Part shown: in pieces, positions 28,401-47,526 of the stretch
How positions within the stretch are numbered: position 1 is the stretch's first letter
Layout of the letters: every line of letters starts with the position of its first letter
Assembly (NCBI GenBank): GCA_964036295.1
Contig: OZ038469.1
Location: 186,001 to 250,000, forward strand
Direction of reading: 5' to 3'
Length of the DNA stretch: 64,000 bases
DNA from: Plumapathes pennacea
Lineage: Eukaryota > Cnidaria > Anthozoa > Antipatharia > Myriopathidae
The notes under the pieces: model-generated
What the model was told of the DNA's origin: nothing
What the model saw: the letters and a program-made list of their open reading frames with translations, nothing else
The model's database searches: none
Program-made: the position numbers and the translations under genes

Positions 28401-31400
28401 AATGCACGGAGACCTTCCCAAAGGTGCTGTTTTTTTTTGTCTGTAACCTCCACCGAGTGGAGCATAAGTTACTCGATCCTGATTCTGTGTTCTGTTATGG
28501 TTCATTCTTTGCAGGATCGTGATTATGTTTTGTGGCCTGTTCACCTGTTGTGCTGTTTTTTATCTTAAACCTGGTTTTGTGTTCTGTTATGGTTCACTCT
28601 CTGCAGGAGCGCGATTGCCTCTGTCTGACTCGAGTTGTGGGGCTGGAGCTCGTACAGGCCGTCAAGTTTAGGTCTTCTCTACCGGACGCCAATCTACAAG
28701 CATTGATACAGGTGAACAGGCCTTGTTTATACCCACTGACATCTGTGTTGTGTGTTGTTTGTGAGTATGCGTGTATGAGAGAAGGGCATTGTTACAATCA
28801 GGTGAAGAGCTAGAACATTTATTCCTTGTTTAATTAGTTTTCATTTTTAACCAAAACAAGATATCAAATGATTTTTGTCGTTTTTTCTGTTTTGCTGGAT
28901 GCTGTTAAAACTTAGTCAATCCTGCGACCATCCTTCCTTACAGTTTGTAGCTATAGACGCTGGAAGCAAGATTAAGTTTGGAGGAGACTCGGACAAGACT
29001 TCCTTTGACGTGTCATTTGGGGTCAGTAAAGCTACACGTTGTGTCATGTAATTTGCTTTGCTTACAGGTTATTGATGCACCAGATAACGCTTCCAACGCT
29101 CATATAGTTTATTGTTTTGGCAGACCGAGTGCAAAGCTTGGGTTTTCTTAAACTTCTGCCGGTTGCGTCAATTTGCCGCACGGCTGCGCAATATTTTGTC
29201 CGTACACGCACGCGTTTTCTGTTCTATGTTAGATAATAATGTTTGTCGGCCGCTGGATAATAAATATATTAATTCGCATTTGTACTCCTGTTCTTGCAGG
29301 TCCGCACTCGAGCGATCGAGTGTGTCCGCCAGTACATGACAGAAGCCGTGGAGTTTATTAAAGATTGGCGCTTCACCGCAAGGTCCAAAAATGTACGCAC
29401 GTTTTGATTGATACGACGACGTCTACTTGTGTATTTGTCTGTTTGCCTCTATTGCTGTCTTTCTGTGTAGAATACAAAGTTACTCTATGACGTCACAGTA
29501 GCCTTTTATGGGTACAGAGTTTCGTGTCAGCGGGAACAAAGTATGTAAAGAGTTTTGCGTTTGCACTCACAGGAAAATCGCCGGCTGAGTGAGCCGAACC
29601 TGAATTTAGACACGCTTCCAATCCAACTAAAAGCGAGCATCGCTCAACTGGTGGCGCTAGAACTCACCAAACACTCGAAGGAAAGCAAGATCTACAGCAA
29701 GGCCCTGGGATGGCTAAGAAACCCACCCAGCGCCACACAACTAGGGTGAGCATATTGATGTTAGGGATAGTTCTGTTCCTCTCCTAGTACAATTATTACA
29801 TATACTACATGTTGCACTTCAACAAGGTCCATTTTAGACAATGCTTAGGATTGAAATGCGCAAAGTTTGTCAGGTGTGGCTCTTCAGATGGAGCACTTCT
29901 CAAGTGTTTAAGTGAAACACAATGCCTAAAAATAGCTTGTTCATCTGTTCGTGTTTCGAAACTCCGTGAAACGTCATGAATTTGGTTTCTATTGCGGTTT
30001 CGTATCCACTCCTGTGCTTTCAGTTTCGTGTTGCCTTGATCAGCCGGACTTACATTCGTGATTTTGTGGAAGACATTTAATATCGTGAAATAAGATGAGC
30101 TGGCAAGATTCAAAGAACTCGCTCGCAGACAGGACGAGGTTTTTGTGGAAGAACACTCTGATGTCGGACGTTAGTTTTCACCTCCGAAATAATACTGGTG
30201 ATCAGGTGGCTGTTATTTTCGCACACAAGTTCGTTCTGGCAATCAGCAGTGCAGTGTTCTTTGAGATGTTTTATGGCGAAAAAGCTGAGAATATCGACGT
30301 ATTGGAGCTTAGCGACAGTAACTCGCGTAGCTTTGAAGAGTTCTTGCGCTTTCTGTATTATGATGAAGTGCACTTTAAAGATCTCGACAGTGCCATAGAT
30401 ATATTTCTCCTTGCTGTGAAGTACAACGTTTGCTCACTCAAAGCGTCGTGCGTTGCGTACCTTGAGGAACACCTTACAGCGGGAAATGTGTTGCAAGTTT
30501 TGTCCCTCGCTCAGGAACATGGAGAAGAGAAGCTTGTTAAGTGCTGCTGGGAACTTGTGCAACTACAAACTGAAGAAGCCGTGAAATCAGACTGGTTCAT
30601 CAAAATAGACAAAGCCCTTCTGCTTGACCTTTTGAAGCGAGACAACCTAAATGTGCGCGAGATTGATTTATTCAAAGCCGTGGAACGCTGGGGGACATTT
30701 CAGAGCAACAGAGCTGGTAATTCCTCCAGCAGAAAGTGCAGCAAGAGAGAATTGCTAGGACAGGAAGTCATGAGACTCATCAGGTTCTCGACCATGTCTT
30801 TGGAGGAATTTGCAGAACACGTGCCTGCATCAAACTTGCTTCAACACGACGAGATCATCCGCCATTTTGTAAACTTTAGTTGCTCAAAGCCGCGCTTGTG
30901 TGTAGCGCCTCGCTCTGGAATACTTCACAGATGTTTGAGGTTTAGTTCGACACGGCGCTGGTTTTTATACAGTGGGTCTGCTCCCGAGTTCATGTCCTTT
31001 TCCGTTGACACCCCTGTTCACTTTTTTGGAGTTAGGTTGTTCGGAAGCGAGAATTCCCACTACACGGCCAAGCTGCAGATCTACGAGACTTCGGCGACAA
31101 AATCTGAGATAGCTTCCGTGCAGGGAGGATACAGTTGTGCCGTGCAAGGAAGACAGGAATATTTTGGGTTTGATGTTACACTAAAAAAGCCAGTTCAGCT
31201 GAAGAAAGATACGGTTTACATTGTCGAAGTCCTACTAACAGGACCCCCCTCAAGTTTTGGCTCGGCGGGGAAAACCATCGTGCAGTGTGATGACGTCACA
31301 TTTACTTTCCTGGACGACTGCTGTCCTGTATTTGCCAAGTTCCGAGCCGGTCAGTTTGCTGATATCCTGTATTTCAAACAATACTGATAACGGAGAACGA

Positions 31401-33717: not shown

Positions 33718-35849
33718 AGTCTTTGTGCACCTGTTGGATCTTAACTAGTTTCCAAGCCCACCCTGTCACGCAGCGCTTGATAGCCTTCGTGTGAAGGTTG
33801 TTTGTCGCTAACGGTACGCATGAGTAATAACAAGCTTATGCACGAGCCTAAGAAGTGTTCCGTTATCTTATGCCGAGTTATGTCTCGATGTTATGTGTAA
33901 AAGCAGGGTTTCACTAGCGCGAGTAGTCGACAGGCCCCATTTGACATTGATCAGCTCAGGATAAATTTTAAAATGCTTATTGTACACAATGTATGTATAT
34001 AAATAAATAATTGTCAGGATAGAAAGAGCCACCAAGTCAAATCCTAGTTCTGTTTGAGAAATGATCCGGCAGAACTCTGTACCAAGCTGCGCGCGCTTTT
34101 GTTGCGATGTCACGGCAGTCGTGAATTAATGCTGGTTCGGAAGGAATAGTGAAAATATGCGTGACAGCTAACGTGGTTTAAGAAGTCCTGCATCGTGTTG
34201 GAAACGCGCCCACGCCTGATATCTTGACGTGCATAAATGAAAGAACCTGGGTCGAACATGCAGCCGTGAGAATTTAGAGGAATCTGGGTACTAGTTTTGT
34301 CATAGAGCGGAAGTGACGGGGCAGAATATGAACTGATGATGAACACTTGACACGCGGTATCATTGGAACTTTTGCCGATCTTCTTTGGGAATGGAGCCCT
34401 CAGGATTCGTGGTAAGTTCTCTAATGCTATTAGATACTGAACGTAATCCAAATACGTAGTCTCCCCGGACTTCACAAGTCAAGGTTCGATGCCCTCGAAG
34501 TCGACTTTTCAGTTTCAAATTTCTGTAGTATATGTTGCTTCTACAATCCACATCACACGTAATCACAATGAACAAGCAAATCGTTTGTACTTCACAATTG
34601 AGTGTAACTTCTCATTTCTACGTACCCTACCTTATCTGCCTTCGACTCGACTCTCTGACGCCATTTTAAATTATAAATACACACATAAGAAATCGAAAAA
34701 TGAGTCGCTGGGACATATTGTGATGATCGATGGGGATCGATCCCACAAAGAAATATACAGTGTTAAGAACCTTATAAATAAAAGCTTTCAAATAAAAACT
34801 AGATAAAACTATCTAATGAATGTCTGATGAATAAATAGATAAATAAATGTGTTCGGTCATCCCATAATGTTTTACTTTGCATTTTGTCACGAGATGAAAA
34901 TGAGTGGGACTGGAAACTAGAAACATCCAACACAAGCAAGTGAACAGGATGGCATACTTTGCATATTGTCTTTTTTCCACTCACAGCTTGTCCCACAATG
35001 GAACATTTATAATGCAGATTTGAATAAATATTAAAATTGGTAAAATTTAAAATATTCAACCAATAGACACAATAACACTGCATGAGCATGGGATGATACC
35101 ACTGACCAGTCAGACCATAGTTGACAAAAGCATAAATAAATTAGCTAAAGCAACAAAGAAATGGGTCTTAGCAGTAATTCATAATTTACAGGTATTGTAC
35201 TTGTCAGTTTGGGAATGGGTGGGAGTTTTTATGTACTGGTAGCAAGCTCAGGATTATCCAGTGAAACAAAAAATTAAATAATAGTAATAAATTGAATTGG
35301 TGGAAATGGATTGGTTTAATTTTGGGGGGAGGGGAGAGCCTGGAAGTGTGAGTCAAGGATTTTAGAGCATACCTGACTTTGGTCAGGTGGACATTGACCT
35401 TGTACCCAGTCTTTTTCTGGTAGGGGTGATTTCAGTGAACTCTCTCTAAGGCGGCCACCCTCGGGACTAGATTTTGTGTCTGCCTTAGAGAGGTGTCCGC
35501 TTTAGAGAGGTGTCTGCTTTAGAGAGGTGTCCGCTGAGAGAGAGTTGACTGTAATATTGTTTTCCATGCTACCACTGATGTATTGCACATTTGTTACTTA
35601 TAGTATTCTGGTAACAAAATATTCCTATGTTTCAGTATAGCTTTCCACTTACTGTATGTTTTGTACCAATCTATATACCAAACTATTTACAACCTTTTAC
35701 TCAGAATCTCTGCCAGGAAACCTTCCAGGGAGTATGAGTAGCAGAAAATGTGAAAATGTCTTGCAAAACATTTTCTTATATAATCCCAAGACAATTACTT
35801 GAAGGGATTCTAATTTCTGACCAAATTTGGCCCTCCATTTTATTAACAG
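33718..35849. other. Intergenic region between UNC79 and the ankyrin gene
   Basis: About 2.1 kb, AT-rich. It holds the UNC79 3' end, a repeat element at 35435-35549 and presumably the missing first exon or promoter of the ankyrin gene. Open frames at 34110-34475 and 34360-34575 (minus) and 34489-34806 (plus) have no recognisable domain and no supporting splice pattern, so they are not called. Confidence 0.5.
35435..35549. mobile_element. MITE-like repeat with internal 20-bp units
   Basis: The outer ends form an imperfect inverted repeat: GTGAACTCTCTCTAAGGCGG at the left, and GTCAACTCTCTCTCAGCGG as the reverse complement of the right. Inside are tandem copies of a 20-base unit based on TTAGAGAGGTGTCCGC. 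No coding capacity. Probably a dispersed, high-copy non-autonomous element. Confidence 0.7.
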
Positions 35850-38800
35850 CCAAGTCTCAAGACACTATCATTCCGCGCTGTAGCTACAAGAGAGGAAAAT
35901 AGTGGACTTAGCTTCCTTCACGCCGTTTGTATTGACAGCAGTGACCAAACAGTTGCCACGATTGCCACGTGCTGTCCAGGAAAGCTTGACGCTGCGATTG
36001 CCCTTAGTGTAAGAGTCGGCAAGAATTCTCGCAAATTTCCAGGACAGACGACCTTGGGTATCCTGAGTCTGCAAACCACGCTAGCCGCTCAGAGATGCAG
36101 AGATGTGTTGGTGCGGGCAGTTGGAGACTTAAGAGACAAATCAGTGTTTCATGCCGCAGCGAAACAAGGCAGCGTTTACCACGTGAAGAAGCTTCTTCAC
36201 AACAATGTTAACCAAGTGTCACCGGAACCAGAAGATTGCGGTGCCACTCCTCTGATTCTGGCTGCGCATTTTAACACGACAAATGTTGTCGAGCTTCTTC
36301 TCGGGAAGGCGGCTTCTTTGTGTAATATGGATACTCGGGGCTTATGTCCTCTACACCATGCCGCACTCGGAGGAAACGCAAGCACAATTCTACGGCTGCT
36401 AGAACATGGAGCCGACGTACACGTCAAGGTGTTTGAGAGTGAAATGACGGCTTTCCATTGTGCTGCACAAAGTGGTAACACAGCAGCAGTGCGCGTTCTT
36501 TTGGAGCACGGAGCAAAGAATGTTGGTTTTCGTGACCGTAAAACTCCTCTGATGTATGCAGCCGAGAACGGTCACGTGCAGACGGTTGAGTTGTTTGTCC
36601 AACTTGGTTGCGATGTGAATGCCCAGGACAATTACCACTACTCGTCTCTTCACTATGCTGTGAAAGGAAACAACGTTGATGTCGTGCAATTATTACTGCA
36701 GTCTGGAAGCCGCTTAGACGCGAGATTACAAGATAACCAAACTGTCCTGCATTTGGCTAGCGATGTGCCCATGGCCCGTTTCCTGGTTCAGCAAGGTTGC
36801 AATGTGCGTTGGCGAGATAACAACGGCAGGACGCCTTTTCTGTGTGCAGCTGAAAAAGGGGCTACCGATGTCGTGGCATTCTTCTTGAACAACGACAGTG
36901 AAATTTTAGCAAGGGATGTCTGTGAAAGCACGGCCCTTCATCTTGCCTTTCAAAACAACCGTTCTGATACTGTTAAGTATTTAATGAACAAACTGACAGA
37001 GTCCATTCAAAACCGTGACGGTGTAACCGATTTCGTGGACGTACTCACAGCTTGTGGTCGGAATGACGTGCTAAAAGGTCTTTTTAAAGAAGGGCTGTCG
37101 GTTGACAGTCGACCCAGAGATAAACAGACACTTCTTATGATCGCCGCAGCATACGGACAGTTGAAGACTGTGTGTCTTCTTTTGGATCAAGGGGCTGATG
37201 TTAATCTTACGTGGACAAATGATGCCGACACATGGGATTTCGGAGAGAAGAATGAATATGAAGTGAACGCACTTCACTGCGCGCTGACCAACCGACATGA
37301 AGACATCGCTAAAGTTCTTGTAGAACGCGGGGCTGATATTAAGATGTGTAACTCTGATTACCTCACTCCTATTAACGCTGCTGCAAAGCAAGGCTTGACT
37401 GGTGTAGTTGAGTTTCTGATCGAGCAAGGAGTGGATACTGCTGTGAGCGAGGGAGAAGATACTCTTCTTGTGTCTGCTGTCAAAGGGGGACACATTAAAA
37501 CAATCAAGTTCCTGTTAGATCGGGGTGTTGATGCCTCTGCTTGTTATGATGACGGTGAAACGGTTCTGCACAGAAGCATCTTCTGGGCCCCAAAGGAGAA
37601 CTTCCTGGAAATAACAAAACTACTAATCGAGCGTGGACTAGACATCAATGCTAGAAGCCATGTTTCCGGGGGACAGACACTCTTGCATCTTGCTGCTGAT
37701 AACGACAAGAACACCACAGCCGAGCTACTTGTCGAGCTTGGAATTGACGTGAACGCCACCGATGAACATTTCACTTCTGCGCTGCACGTAGCTGCCGACA
37801 ATAACAACGTCAGACTCGCGGAGTTCCTGATAGATCGTGGTGCTGATTTGAACGCAACAACCCAGAGGAAGAGAACGCCTCTTCACAACGCTATCGAGAA
37901 TAACAGCGTGGGAGTGGTAGAGTTGCTACTACAGCGTGGCTGTGAGATCGAGGTGAAGGACTCGTATACTTGGACTCCACTCGCCTCGGCGGTCAGAGAA
38001 AATAACTTAGCCTTTGTGGAGCGCTTTCTGCAACAAGGAGCTGATGTCCACGCGCGTACTAATAAAGGGCGCACTCCACTCATGCAAGCTGCCTTCTTTG
38101 ATATAGGCGAACCGGCGATCGTCAAGTTGCTGTTGGAACACGGCAGTGGTGTCGATGATGTTGACAATGATGGCAAGTGCAGTCTTCATTTAGCGGTAAA
38201 CTCTGCTCGTGACCGAAAGAGTATTGTGGAGGTGCTTGTCGATAAAGGAGCCGATGTTAACAAGCCAGATGCTCGCGGTAACACCCCGCTACACCATGCA
38301 GTATCGAGTGAAAATTATGAGATAGCCGAGTTTCTGTTAGGTCGTGGCGCTCGTGTGACGTCCTTGAATGAAAATGGCCGTTTGCCTATCCATTCTGCTT
38401 CTTTACCAAAATCTCCATGTTCAAGAAATGAACGCCAAACAGAGATAGTGGAACTACTGCTCCGTCATGGAGGCGATGTTCATAGTACTGACGCAGATGG
38501 CTTCCTGCCAATTCATCTGGCTTCCAAAGCAGGCAATACTGATTTGATGGACATTTGTATACGGAGTGGCGTCGATGTTAATGCCGTGGACAACAAGGGC
38601 CGGACTGCTCTGCATTTCTGTGGGAAGCCAGAGGCCGCTGAATTTCTCATCCAGCGCGGAGTGGACGTCAATAAACTGGATGAGAATGGGATAACCCCGC
38701 TCGGTGCAGTACTGCAAAGAAAGATGGCCGGAGATATTTTACCAGTTCTCGTAAACCACGGAGCTGATATCTGGACCAAGGACGCTAAGTATGGCGGGAC

Positions 38801-40205
38801 GACCCTGCACAAGGCGGCATCCTGGGGAATGGCGGATGTGGTGGGATCTCTTGTTGAGCGGGGATTGGACGTCAATGCCGTAGACAAGAATGGCGATACT
38901 GCGTTACACCGCGCTGCGTCACACGGAAAAGTGGAGACATTAGAAAAGCTGATTTTACTCGGCGGAAATCTGAAGGCAGCAAACAACAGGGGTCAGACAC
39001 CACTACATATAATTTATGCAGGAACCTTACCATATTCTTCGAATGAAACCAATGTACTACTGAAGTATGAGAATGATTTGCACGCGGTGGATGATAAGGG
39101 TAACACGCCTTTGCACATTGCATCATTGTACGCCAAAGTCGGTGCGATTGAGCCCCTGTTGGCCGGTGGGAGTATTGTAAATGCGTGTAACGCTGATGGC
39201 AAAATCCCCCTTCATTTTGCACTTTATGGGATTTTTAAGGAGCATATAGTGGAGCAGTTGTTGGAAGCAGGCAGTGATGTCAACTTTAGATACAAAGATG
39301 GCCTAACGCCGATGCAATTCGCTTCCATGTACGCCACCGACGATAACCTTGAGAAGCTGGTGAAGCACGGAGGGGATCTGAAAGTTGCCGACGCCTGGAA
39401 CATGACTCCACTGCATATGCGGGCAACAAACTGGGAAAACTCCCCCTCTACCTTTGAGCTGTTGATCGAGCACGGCTGTGACGTGAGAGCTGTGGATGAC
39501 CGAGGGAACACAGCCTTGCATCTAGCCGCGATGCTCACTACTCCGTCTCATGTGCAAGCCTTGCTCAAGCAAAACAGCGACATGAATGCTGGCAATAATC
39601 AAGGAAGTACACCTCTGCACTTGGCAGCAGCGAGAAATGATCTCGGAATCGTCAATCTGCTTTTGGAGGCTGGCTGCGAAGTTGATGTGACCGACCGAAA
39701 GGGAAGTACACCGCTACATTTAGCGGCCGTGTTTGGTCAAGCCGAGGTCGCCTCCATTTTGGTAAAAAATGGCGCCGATGTGCACGCGACAGATACACAA
39801 GGCAGCACCCCAGTCCATTTGGCGGCGGCGTTCGGCAGTTTACACATTCTTCACTTACTGCTCCAGAACGGCGCGTGCGTACAGACCCGGGACGGGCGCG
39901 GCAACACTGCGGCGCACCCCGCAGCGGCTAATGGTCACGTGACGATCCTACAGGTCCTGTTCAAACATGGCTGCGATGCCCGAGCTGCCAACTGTGACGG
40001 CGAGACAGCGTTACACTTCGCTGCTGGGTCTGGTCAGACGTATGCAGTGAGGCTTCTGATTGAAAACGGAGCAGAATGTTGGTGTTTGGACACAGAAGGC
40101 AGGTCTCCGCTCGACTGTGCGCTTATGTGTCGTCAGACGGTCACAGCTGAAGCATTGTGCGGCTGGCTTGTTGACAGTGAGGATCGACATACCGCCAAGA
40201 AATGA
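35850..40205 (+). CDS. Giant ankyrin-repeat protein (5' end unresolved)
   Basis: One uninterrupted exon encodes more than 1,400 residues, nearly all ankyrin repeats: roughly 35-40 units of about 33 residues with the TPLHLAA...GHxxVVxLLLxxGAD pattern. The last repeat is followed by a short tail ending SEDRHTAKK. No transmembrane, death, kinase or NACHT segment is visible, so a scaffold or binding role is likely but unproven. The frame opens after a stop at 35844, and a good acceptor (TTTTATTAACAG) ends at 35849. The only upstream starts in frame are non-ATG; the first in-frame ATG is at 36327, inside the second repeat. The real start therefore probably lies in an unfound upstream exon. A transposon-like repeat lies 300 bp upstream. 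Confidence 0.85.
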   Translation, partial: PSLKTLSFRAVATREENSGLSFLHAVCIDSSDQTVATIATCCPGKLDAAIALSVRVGKNSRKFPGQTTLGILSLQTTLAAQRCRDVLVRAVGDLRDKSVFHAAAKQGSVYHVKKLLHNNVNQVSPEPEDCGATPLILAAHFNTTNVVELLLGKAASLCNMDTRGLCPLHHAALGGNASTILRLLEHGADVHVKVFESEMTAFHCAAQSGNTAAVRVLLEHGAKNVGFRDRKTPLMYAAENGHVQTVELFVQLGCDVNAQDNYHYSSLHYAVKGNNVDVVQLLLQSGSRLDARLQDNQTVLHLASDVPMARFLVQQGCNVRWRDNNGRTPFLCAAEKGATDVVAFFLNNDSEILARDVCESTALHLAFQNNRSDTVKYLMNKLTESIQNRDGVTDFVDVLTACGRNDVLKGLFKEGLSVDSRPRDKQTLLMIAAAYGQLKTVCLLLDQGADVNLTWTNDADTWDFGEKNEYEVNALHCALTNRHEDIAKVLVERGADIKMCNSDYLTPINAAAKQGLTGVVEFLIEQGVDTAVSEGEDTLLVSAVKGGHIKTIKFLLDRGVDASACYDDGETVLHRSIFWAPKENFLEITKLLIERGLDINARSHVSGGQTLLHLAADNDKNTTAELLVELGIDVNATDEHFTSALHVAADNNNVRLAEFLIDRGADLNATTQRKRTPLHNAIENNSVGVVELLLQRGCEIEVKDSYTWTPLASAVRENNLAFVERFLQQGADVHARTNKGRTPLMQAAFFDIGEPAIVKLLLEHGSGVDDVDNDGKCSLHLAVNSARDRKSIVEVLVDKGADVNKPDARGNTPLHHAVSSENYEIAEFLLGRGARVTSLNENGRLPIHSASLPKSPCSRNERQTEIVELLLRHGGDVHSTDADGFLPIHLASKAGNTDLMDICIRSGVDVNAVDNKGRTALHFCGKPEAAEFLIQRGVDVNKLDENGITPLGAVLQRKMAGDILPVLVNHGADIWTKDAKYGGTTLHKAASWGMADVVGSLVERGLDVNAVDKNGDTALHRAASHGKVETLEKLILLGGNLKAANNRGQTPLHIIYAGTLPYSSNETNVLLKYENDLHAVDDKGNTPLHIASLYAKVGAIEPLLAGGSIVNACNADGKIPLHFALYGIFKEHIVEQLLEAGSDVNFRYKDGLTPMQFASMYATDDNLEKLVKHGGDLKVADAWNMTPLHMRATNWENSPSTFELLIEHGCDVRAVDDRGNTALHLAAMLTTPSHVQALLKQNSDMNAGNNQGSTPLHLAAARNDLGIVNLLLEAGCEVDVTDRKGSTPLHLAAVFGQAEVASILVKNGADVHATDTQGSTPVHLAAAFGSLHILHLLLQNGACVQTRDGRGNTAAHPAAANGHVTILQVLFKHGCDARAANCDGETALHFAAGSGQTYAVRLLIENGAECWCLDTEGRSPLDCALMCRQTVTAEALCGWLVDSEDRHTAKK

Positions 40206-41331: not shown

Positions 41332-43449
41332 ATGGGGAACGCTTCATCCACAGACGAAATCAGGCTTGGAGAAGCTATCGGTGAGGGTTCGTACGGTGAA
41401 GTGTTCAAAGCTGTATGGAGAGGGAAGCCGGTGGCTGCCAAACGGATTCGGGCCGTGTTCTTTGAGCATGACGAAGATGGCAGCGTGAGAGAAGCCTTCC
41501 TACAAAAATTTAAATCGGAATGGGAGCTTCTCAGCCGTTTGGATCACCGTAGCATCGTGAAATATTACACTGTTATACTTCCACCGCGTCCTGAAACGCC
41601 GATAATTGTCACAGAACTGCTGGACTGTGACTTGGCGCATTTACTGAGAAACTCGCGAACTGTACCAAAAGTTGCCTTCCCTGATGCGGTTACGATAATG
41701 CTTGACGTTGCGGAAGGGTTGAAATATCTGCATGCGCTCAAACCACAACTGGTTCACCGGGATCTGGCTAGCAAAAACATCCTGTTGACACGAGACAAAC
41801 ACGCAAAGATCGCCGATATGGGTTTGGCGAAGGCTTTCCCTCATGGTGCCATGATGGCGACCGCTGTTCCTGGGACTCCTGTATATGCCGCACCAGAGAC
41901 TTACCCCAGGAGACGGCACGGAGGGTTTCATTCCCAATCCGTGTACACAGAGAAAATCGATATCTTTTCATTCGGCGTGTTGCTGCTTGAGGTGATTGTG
42001 GGACATTTGCCGAGTTACATGCCCGACCCTGTGACACCAGGTGAGACATTTTTTTTTTTTTTTTTTTTGCTTCTGCTTTCTGCTTATAAACATTATATTT
42101 TTCTTGAATTTATTTTATATGTTGATAACATCGTTAGGATTGAAAATATTATTTTGGCCCCGAGGGCATGATTGCTCGTTTGACCGTACGTCACGCTACA
42201 CTAGGCTTCGCCGGGAAACCCCCAGCCATAAACCAATCTCCCATACACAAAGACAATATTTGTCAACAAAATTATCACATTGTCTTTTAGGATAGAAAGA
42301 TGCAAAAGTGATATAAGCCCTCCGTTCTAGGCTAAAAATTTACAGCAAAAAGTCAACAAATCTCACGTCATGCTTACTGTAGACTTGTTTATTTAGCTGT
42401 CGCTTGCTTTAGTTTTATTTTATTTTATTTTTTTGCCCCTACCAGGAGGAGAAGTTATTCTAGAGTATTACCGGCGTAGTGAAGACCTGGAGGAGATGGG
42501 TACGGATCATCCTCTACACAACCTCGTCCTCAAATGCCTGGAAAACGACGCTGAACTCCGCCCAAGTGCAGAGAGCATTTCCGACCAACTAAGAAAGTTC
42601 ACGAAGAAAACTCAGCCTCGCCAGATATCCGGCTCTCCACCGCCCGATGCTATTGCAATGCAACACGATTACAAATTCAAGATCGTGCTTTTGGGCGAAT
42701 CTGGCGTGGGAAAGACGTGTATTGTGAAGCGATTCCTCAACCCAAACATCCCCTTTCCTGATGACGAAATTCCAGGCACTATCGATCCCGGGGAGCACTT
42801 CGAGCGCCTGCAGTACCGCGGCAAGTCTGTGCACCTGCACATCGTCGATACCGCTGGTCAAGGACGATTCAGGTCCGCAGACAATCTCGTGCCACAAGTG
42901 TTCCGACGCGTGCGCGGTGTCCTGATCGTCTTTGACGTGACGTCACAGATGTCCTTCTTGGAAGTGCGCAACTGGCTGGACGTTGCGAGGGAGAGATGCG
43001 GCGAAGACGTAAAAATAATTTTGGTGGGAAACAAGACAGACGAAGGAGAGCGGTGGGTGGACAGCCGTGAAGCGTCTGTGTTCGCAGAGCAACACAAAAT
43101 GTCCTACATCGAGACGAGTGCCAAGCAGAAGGAAAATATCGACGAGTTGTTCTCGTATCTGGTGAGCCTCATGATTCAAGATAAAAACGCGAGACAGTTG
43201 GAGAGAGACCCACTCGCCTTCCACACCGCTGACGGGCCTGTGGGCTCACAACTGTCCCCCCGTCCGCACGAAATAACCGCGCGTGAAGTGTCCCCCCGGC
43301 GCGTATTCGTGCCCGAGGACAGCATCACTTTAGATAATGTGGATGTACGAAACATGTCCGCCGGGAGAGCGCAACATGACGACCATTCGACACCTGTACA
43401 ACCAGCCGAGCAAAAGTCTTTCTGGAGTAAATACTGCACTGTGCTGTGA
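41332..43449 (+). CDS. Protein kinase fused to Rab-like GTPase, with N- and C-terminal lipidation signals
   Basis: Two exons (41332-42040, 42446-43449) encode 570 residues. Residues 12-290 form a TKL-like kinase: glycine loop GEGSYGEV, VAAKR lysine, catalytic HRDLASKN, DMG in place of DFG, APE, DIFSFG and a final RPSAESISDQL. After a linker of about 25 residues comes a Rab/Ras-like GTPase (about 312-485): P-loop GESGVGKT, a switch I threonine in PGTIDPGEHF, DTAGQGRF, NKTD and ETSAK. A low-complexity tail ends KYCTVL, a CAAX box whose final Leu predicts geranylgeranylation. The N-terminus MGNASS fits N-myristoylation. All key catalytic residues are present, so both domains may be active. The kinase end and the GTPase share one exon, so the fusion is real in this assembly. 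A membrane-bound signalling role is inferred. I know of no named family with this order; ROCO proteins have GTPase before kinase. Confidence 0.9.
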
Positions 43450-44078: not shown

Positions 44079-44672
44079 TCATGGTCGAGAGTCTTTGGTT
44101 TTTCCTTGAAAGTCCTTCACCATGACCGCCAGTCTCTCAATGGCTTCAACGATTCCTTCGCCGCTTGTTGCGCAGGTTGCTTGCAAGTGCCAGGGGTTGA
44201 GCCTGATTTGGGCCAACTTGAGCTCCTCAGCAAGTTGCTCGGCTTTTGTAGCATATGCCACGTCTTGTTTGTTCGCAAGCACGATTAGAGGCACCCCACT
44301 AAGTTCATCATTGCGCAAAAGCATGAATAGTTCCTTCTTCGCCTCTAGAAACCGTTCTTGGTCGGAGCTGTCTACCACGAACATCAAGCCCTCACTGCCG
44401 TGAATATAATGGCGCCAAAGCGGACGGAGATGATCTTGACCGCCAACGTCCCAAACTGTGAAAGTTACGTTTTTGCACGGGGACACGGTTTCGACGTTGA
44501 ATCCAACGGTTGGTATCGTGGATACGTCTTCCTTGAGCTTCAGTTTGTACAGGATAGTTGTTTTGCCTGCGTTGTCCAAGCCAAGCATCAGAATGCGAGC
44601 TTCTTTCCGATTAGAAAACTCCTGCAGTATTTCCGTCAATCTCGTGAAGAAGCGAGAAAAGTGACTTCCCAT
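44079..44672 (-). CDS. ARF-type small GTPase, copy A (intronless)
   Basis: 197 residues in one exon. ARF-family GTPases recruit coats and effectors to membranes. Motifs: N-terminal MGSHFSRFF (myristoylation glycine plus amphipathic helix), P-loop GLDNAGKTT, switch [23 protein letters not shown] and CATS. Compared with ARF1 (181 residues) the ends are longer, and one extra residue sits in the interswitch turn (VSPCKN for ARF1 VEYKN). It is the most diverged of three neighbouring paralogues: it has AYATKAEQL where the other two keep an LPRA motif. The direct neighbour downstream is the kinase-Rab gene, on the opposite strand and converging. The exact orthologue is not clear. Confidence 0.9.
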
Positions 44673-45275
44673 GACGGACTCGATTTGACTGTGCTACAAC
44701 CCTTCACTGGAGCAAGTGCGAACTAAAAGAACCCTGATGTCATCACCTGGAAATAGATACTCCCGGAAATCTCAATAGCAACTGCTGAGTCGCGATTCTG
44801 GGTTTAATGAATTTCGTTAAAAATTACAACTCTCTCAAAGCTATAAAAACGACTAACAATATTGTAATATCATAAAAGATTGTTGAAAGCTATTGATCTT
44901 TCTTTGAAAACGGGTACAACTAAGCCCTACGTCAAGCAGAATCTGCAACTATTTCAATTGTTTTCTTTTGAGCAAGCGAGTACTTTAGCTGTCATGATGT
45001 TGCGTTTGACTGCCTGGATTCTTTTTGTCCATATAATCAGAGTTTCTAAGTCTTGGACCATACACGAGGTCCGTATATATTTGGATTCATTTCGACCTAC
45101 TGGCCAGGGACTTTGAGTTATAATGCAAATTATTTACAAAAAGATAACAGTACAAAATAGCGAGTGATACACAGTAGAAAACATACAAACAAGGTCATCA
45201 TTGTAAACACGGCCACAGTGATGTCGCAGCTGTCCACCGTCGTACGAGTGGAGTCCGACGCTACGCTATACCGTG
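44673..45275. other. Spacer between ARF copies A and B
   Basis: About 600 bp presumably holding the promoter of copy A and the 3' UTR of copy B. No gene recognised; open frames here overlap no conserved domain. Confidence 0.45.

Positions 45276-47526
<2,251 letters not shown>

Follow-up and report, generated by a model that had tools for sequence, protein, structure and literature searches.

A locus on contig C8 of the antipatharian Plumapathes pennacea raises the question of whether a protein kinase and a Rab-type GTPase are encoded there as one polypeptide and, if so, what such a protein would do. The window analysed here is the whole 64,000-nucleotide stretch C8:186001-250000 of a 290-Mb, 24-contig genome, which was protein-searched; positions without a contig name are those of the window. 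A phase-1 join of 41332-42040 to 42446-43449 yields 570 amino acids without an inner stop, so that the kinase-Rab gene occupies 41332-43449 on the forward strand in two exons (709 and 1,004 nt). The gene model, Pfam, and a motif check reproduced the coordinates, motifs, and exon lengths given in the preliminary description. The features of the gene are as follows:

41332..42040, forward strand: exon 1, the N-terminal part and the kinase as far as the phase-1 splice (residues 1-236 plus one base), donor CAG/GTGAGA
42041..42445, forward strand: intron, GT-AG, phase 1, 405 bp, acceptor CCTACCAG/GAG
42446..43449, forward strand: exon 2 (1,004 nt), end of the kinase C-lobe, linker, Rab GTPase, C-terminal tail, and stop
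41332..41349, forward strand: MGNASS, N-myristoylation-type start (MGxxxS) by sequence, the open frame having no earlier Met
41359..42591, forward strand: protein kinase domain by Pfam, TKL-like by its best PDB matches, residues 10-285, with the intron inside
42658..42678, forward strand: junction MQHDYKF, residues 308-314, just N-terminal of the G domain and resembling the N-terminal tail DHYDYIFK of the in-genome GTPase L001
42679..43173, forward strand: Rab-type GTPase domain, residues 315-479, Pfam Ras E 6.7e-41
42874..42876, forward strand: Ser380, in switch II, opposite the LRRK2 site in an aligned Rab35 chain
43435..43446, forward strand: CTVL, CaaX-type C-terminus by sequence

Directly upstream of the gene lies a 1,452-codon open frame (35847-40205, forward strand) that consists mostly of ankyrin repeats by Pfam, and further upstream is an open frame with BTB-BACK-PHR domains by Pfam (30089-31387, forward strand). 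Just downstream, on the opposite strand, are three consecutive ARF-like open frames (44079-44693, 45276-45977, and 46726-47301), of which the first was run against Pfam and matched Arf.

The kinase half was matched by the Pfam Pkinase and PK_Tyr_Ser-Thr models within residues 10-285 (E 2e-40 and 2.7e-39), and all of its catalytic residues are present, namely K37, E63, HRD142-144, N149, DMG162-164, and APE187-189. Among the best 60 of 2431 PDB matches, the top ones were the TKL kinases CTR1 and TNNI3K, with TAK1, Roco4, and B-Raf also present and EGFR, SOBIR1, PTK6, Fyn, Src, and plant receptor kinases mixed in. We take the HRDLASKN catalytic loop to be tyrosine-kinase-like in appearance and the GTPxYxAPE segment to be Ser/Thr-kinase-like. 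At the site of the window's DMG, eight of the ten other first exons in the family described below have DLG, with NLG in member D and DIG in member G.

The GTPase half is equally complete in the window copy, with GESGVGKT320-327, T348, DTAGQ371-375, NKTD, and ETSAK all in place, and the motif check found all five G motifs. Of its best 60 among 806 PDB matches, 59 were Rab, Sec4, or Ypt chains and the remaining one bears the name 'GTP-binding protein' alone, while a profile of the family GTPases gave Rab, Sec4, or Ypt chains in 60 of the best 60 of 2042. Rabs are further marked by the RabF motifs IGVDF, KLQIW, RFRSI, and YYRGA; in the window gene only RFRS is clear and the rest have diverged. 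Rabs also bind and hydrolyse GTP and undergo membrane cycling, as the Rab part may do. Pfam Roc also matches this GTPase (E 1.5e-18), and this, together with the Roco4 kinase among the best 60 of 2431 PDB matches, would fit a relative of the Roco family (LRRK/DAPK) that has lost its COR domain. Against that origin, the Ras model scores 140 bits and the Roc model 67.6 bits, the PDB chains matching the GTPase are Rabs among the matches listed, no COR was found in the six of six members scanned with Pfam, and a Roco-type kinase of the same genome (L070) falls outside the family in a kinase tree, on a long branch that makes its position unsure. Membership in the Roco family was therefore rejected, since no COR domain is present and the G domain is of the Rab type, and descent from a Roco protein by loss of COR appears very unlikely. 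The COR-A model itself gave 63 matches in the genome, 55 of them over the cut-off; one (C9:7366897) is flanked by a Ras match (C9:7364258) and by the L070 kinase (C9:7370081), a Roc-COR-kinase arrangement. The 63 matches, many of them in long open frames, suggest that Roco genes have expanded greatly in this genome.

The searches placed the window gene in a family of 12 loci, of which nine are complete kinase-GTPase genes, one lacks the GTPase, and two are single exons. First-exon matches were found at 11 places (160.8-527.8 bits; next kinase, 72.5) and second-exon matches at 10 (100.8-761.4 bits; the next, a GTPase lacking the kinase end, 91.0). Apart from the window gene, the loci are:

C8:2.40 Mb: C8b (L015), complete gene
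C8:11.2 Mb: C8c (L016), complete gene
C1:18.009-18.046 Mb: cluster of members A to G
C1:18033568-18035478: member E (L011-L012), without a GTPase; the second exon stops past the C-lobe in a hydrophobic stretch
Member H: kinase exon alone, with no second exon found in a search up to C1:18062000
C1:18.168 Mb: member I, GTPase exon alone, with no kinase exon found in a search back to C1:18156000

All nine complete models are free of inner stops, Pfam matched both kinase and Ras in the six of six members scanned (of 12 loci), and identity between the window protein and the other members is 36-46%. Because 11 more loci have the kinase half, the GTPase half, or both, and eight are complete, the layout is not a chance arrangement, and the sequences establish both the fusion and its family. 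Unlike the C1 group, the three members on C8 show strong divergence, the window protein being 43-44% identical to C8b and C8c with saturated dS. Beyond this genome, 40 pattern matches in viral contigs contained no relative of the family, and at 30 loci in bacterial and archaeal contigs the matches end at residue 307 or earlier, that is, they cover the kinase only. The same genome yielded two observations on other genes. The mitochondrial cox1 (L029), which lies on a contig of 17.7 kb, is interrupted by an insertion with a LAGLIDADG-type ORF, and Wnt exon matches numbered 63, with dense matches on both strands at C10:7.00-7.10 Mb that resemble a tandem Wnt array. Both the cox1 insertion and the abundance of Wnt matches would fit an anthozoan cnidarian. 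Scans for GFP and innexins gave no match in this genome or in the control genomes.

The paralogues also bear on whether two neighbouring genes or transcripts have been read as one, a mistake that the preliminary description had judged unlikely. An in-frame Met308 stands just ahead of the window G domain, so a Rab-only product is conceivable, but this Met is absent from C8b and C8c. In all 10 loci with a GTPase, a single open exon encodes the kinase end together with the GTPase, and the phase-1 intron lies at the identical place inside the kinase in 10 of the 10 loci with both splice sites. Mis-joining of two genes is ruled out by this shared exon and common intron, and two separate genes or transcripts are extremely improbable. 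Since both domains have an exon in common and the intron place is equal in the paralogues, a single polypeptide is indicated; its kinase-then-Rab anatomy is secure as sequence, and the gene is presumably expressed.

How the two halves came together is suggested by the junction and by the trees. The sequence just ahead of the G domain, DHYDYNFKILLLG in C8c and MQHDYKFKIVLLG in the window gene, can be set against DHYDYIFKILLIG, which starts the in-genome Rab L001, and the junction looks as if a kinase had been placed ahead of an entire Rab. L001 and a second in-genome GTPase, L002, are called Rabs here from a reading of their sequences. When a phylogeny was built for each domain, the GTPase placed the family on one side of a branch (93/96) beside L001 and L002 in a tree of 20 rows, a value reached after dropping eight rows, family member G among them; with all 28 rows the family needs two changes, and one change is seen in 40% of bootstraps. 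The kinase trees leave a single clade unproved, as 22 rows put the family on one side of a branch at 51/96 and in 52% of bootstraps, whereas 17 rows split it (two changes; 24% of bootstraps) with one clade unrejected (p-AU 0.359). Kinase and GTPase distances co-vary across nine genes (r 0.79), with only two of 2000 permutations as high. Most simply, the fusion would have arisen once, in the ancestor of the paralogues: one origin fits the intron and layout common to the members, the way in which the distances of the two halves co-vary, and the GTPase branch, though the trees by themselves do not prove it.

Sequence constraint on the two halves was compared among paralogues. A measurable dS was obtained for 35 pairs, each between two C1 members, and their dN/dS was 0.14-0.40; in the five pairs with both exons measured, the ratio was 0.18-0.30 in the first exon and 0.23-0.45 in the second. 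These values show purifying selection among the C1 paralogues. Saturated dS was seen in every one of the 30 pairs that include the window gene, C8b, or C8c, so that selection on the window copy is presumed. The catalytic set of Lys, alpha-C Glu, HRD, Asn, and DxG is intact in 10 of 11 family kinases; the kinase of member D has HRN and NLG, and that of member G has APK. GTPase motifs have decayed in several members: the catalytic Gln is replaced by Glu in B and C8c and by Val in G, the P-loop of G reads GRT, and altered G motifs are found in F (SKVD), C8b (ETSAL), and C8c (EVNAK). This pattern touches on a reading in which the Rab part is a mere membrane anchor or scaffold and the kinase is unregulated by GTP cycling. 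It would account for the loss of the catalytic Gln in three of 10 GTPases and of the P-loop Lys in G, for the further changes that leave GK[ST], DTAGQ, NKxD, and ETSAK together in just four of 10 (window, C, D, and I), and for member E, which has dropped the GTPase and ends instead in a hydrophobic stretch that could be a tail anchor. The retention of the GK[ST] P-loop and the switch I Thr in nine of 10 GTPases and the exon 2 dN/dS below 0.5 in all five measured pairs argue against it, and we consider a purely anchoring role for the Rab improbable.

Membrane attachment is suggested by both ends of the window protein, as the preliminary description had emphasised. We read MGxxxS starts and Cys ends as myristoylation and prenylation signals, and take a Leu-ended CaaX such as CTVL to be of the geranylgeranyl type; CTVL is a CaaX and not the usual Rab-type Cys end. 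An MGxxxS start was found in eight of 11 family first exons (MGNASS, MGSSSS, MGNAGS, MGNTDS, MGNETS, MGVGSS, MGVVCS, and MGIGSS), with residues 3-5 variable; it is absent from B, F, and C8b, the last of which has more Met codons upstream. Prenyl-type Cys ends (CTVL, CVLA, CAC, CNC, CSCC, and CSC) occur in six of 10 family GTPases though the tails hardly align, with CXC or CC ends in A, D, F, and I, and ends unlike the prenyl type in C8b (CRCRRS), B (CSN), C, and G. The double signal described for the window gene therefore stands and lipid signals are a common trait of the family, but not a universal one: four of the nine complete members (window, C8c, A, and D) have both, seven have at least one, and C8b and B have neither.

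Self-phosphorylation, an idea of the preliminary description, is possible, with Ser380 of the Rab part as a candidate site for the kinase of the same chain. This residue corresponds to what we take as the LRRK2 site of Rabs, T72 of Rab35. In a self-modifying switch, the kinase would phosphorylate its own Rab at Ser380, in cis or in trans, and so fix the Rab on the membrane, as LRRK2 does with separate Rabs. Such a switch would be in keeping with the position of Ser380 and with Ser in nine of 10 family GTPases, the exception, G, having also lost its P-loop Lys. Three ordinary GTPases of the same genome also carry Ser or Thr there, however (Thr in L001, Ser in L002 and L004), and Ser380 therefore permits self-action without supporting it. 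Member D retains the Ser despite its HRN/NLG kinase, and the linker is short (in the nine members with both motifs located, 37-51 residues separate the C-lobe RP motif from the P-loop), which would make action in cis harder. We regard a switch of this kind as unlikely.

The explanation that we favour, and hold to be slightly better than evenly balanced, is a membrane-anchored kinase that is addressed, and probably gated, by its own fused Rab. Rabs mark membranes, and kinases act on membranes. From the domains and terminal motifs we infer lipid attachment, GTP gating, and substrates as follows. A TKL-like kinase is joined ahead of a complete Rab in one protein, and N-terminal myristate together with a C-terminal prenyl group would keep that protein on a membrane. 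The Rab part would serve as both address and gate, in that its GEF, GAP, and effectors would set the membrane on which the kinase works and the timing of its work. The kinase would phosphorylate proteins on that membrane, mostly other molecules, with Ser380 of its own Rab or of a neighbouring one as a possible extra target. A more far-reaching proposal, an undescribed animal family, expanded to some 12 loci in this one genome, whose members unite a kinase with the Rab that controls it in one doubly anchored molecule, Ser380 feedback included, is offered tentatively and is doubtful as a whole. If true, it would amount to a minimal natural LRRK2-Rab pair, coupling GTP loading, membrane address, and kinase output within about 470-570 residues.

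The kinase-Rab arrangement is a new domain layout made from known parts. No kinase-Rab family of this layout was found in the open-access literature among the matches listed, in agreement with the preliminary description, which named none. With neither COR nor another recognised domain between its halves, the fusion offers a small system for the control of a kinase by a G domain, and the family suggests that kinase-GTPase coupling also arose outside the Roco family. Multidomain ARF-family proteins are likewise lineage-specific small GTPase fusions, but with ARF in place of Rab, and the passages of PMC8358228 that describe them name no protein kinase fusion. The large Rabs Rab44, Rab45/RASEF, and Rab46/CRACR2A resemble the kinase-Rab protein in being multidomain with a C-terminal Rab domain and differ in the EF-hand and coiled coil in front, and 'kinase domain' is named 0 times for them in the sections of PMC8303950 at hand. 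No EF-hand family was matched at E 0.001 in the six of six kinase-Rab members scanned with Pfam. In the text of the Phytophthora kinome at hand (PMC3019232), 'Ras' occurs 0 times and GTPase three times.

LRRK2, LRRK1, and Dictyostelium Roco4 (Roco group 2) likewise have a kinase and a Ras-superfamily GTPase in one chain. They differ in their GTPase-COR-kinase order, in their LRR and often ankyrin parts, and in having Roc and not Rab. To our knowledge, dual lipid signals are not found in these three proteins. DAPK1 (Roco group 3), which also carries ankyrin repeats, shares the kinase-first order. As far as the relevant part of PMC6337361 describes them, LRRK2 phosphorylates Rabs in trans, mutated LRRK2 is a common cause of inherited Parkinson's disease, and group 3 is the sole Roco group with the kinase first. 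The contrast in domain order that the preliminary description drew with Roco proteins must be narrowed, as DAPK1 already has its kinase ahead of the GTPase, whereas the contrast in COR holds, since DAPK1 has a COR domain (PMC6337361). According to the same part of that source, DAPK1 combines a calmodulin-dependent kinase with RocCOR and a death domain (PMC6337361), whereas in the kinase-Rab protein a Rab follows directly after the kinase.
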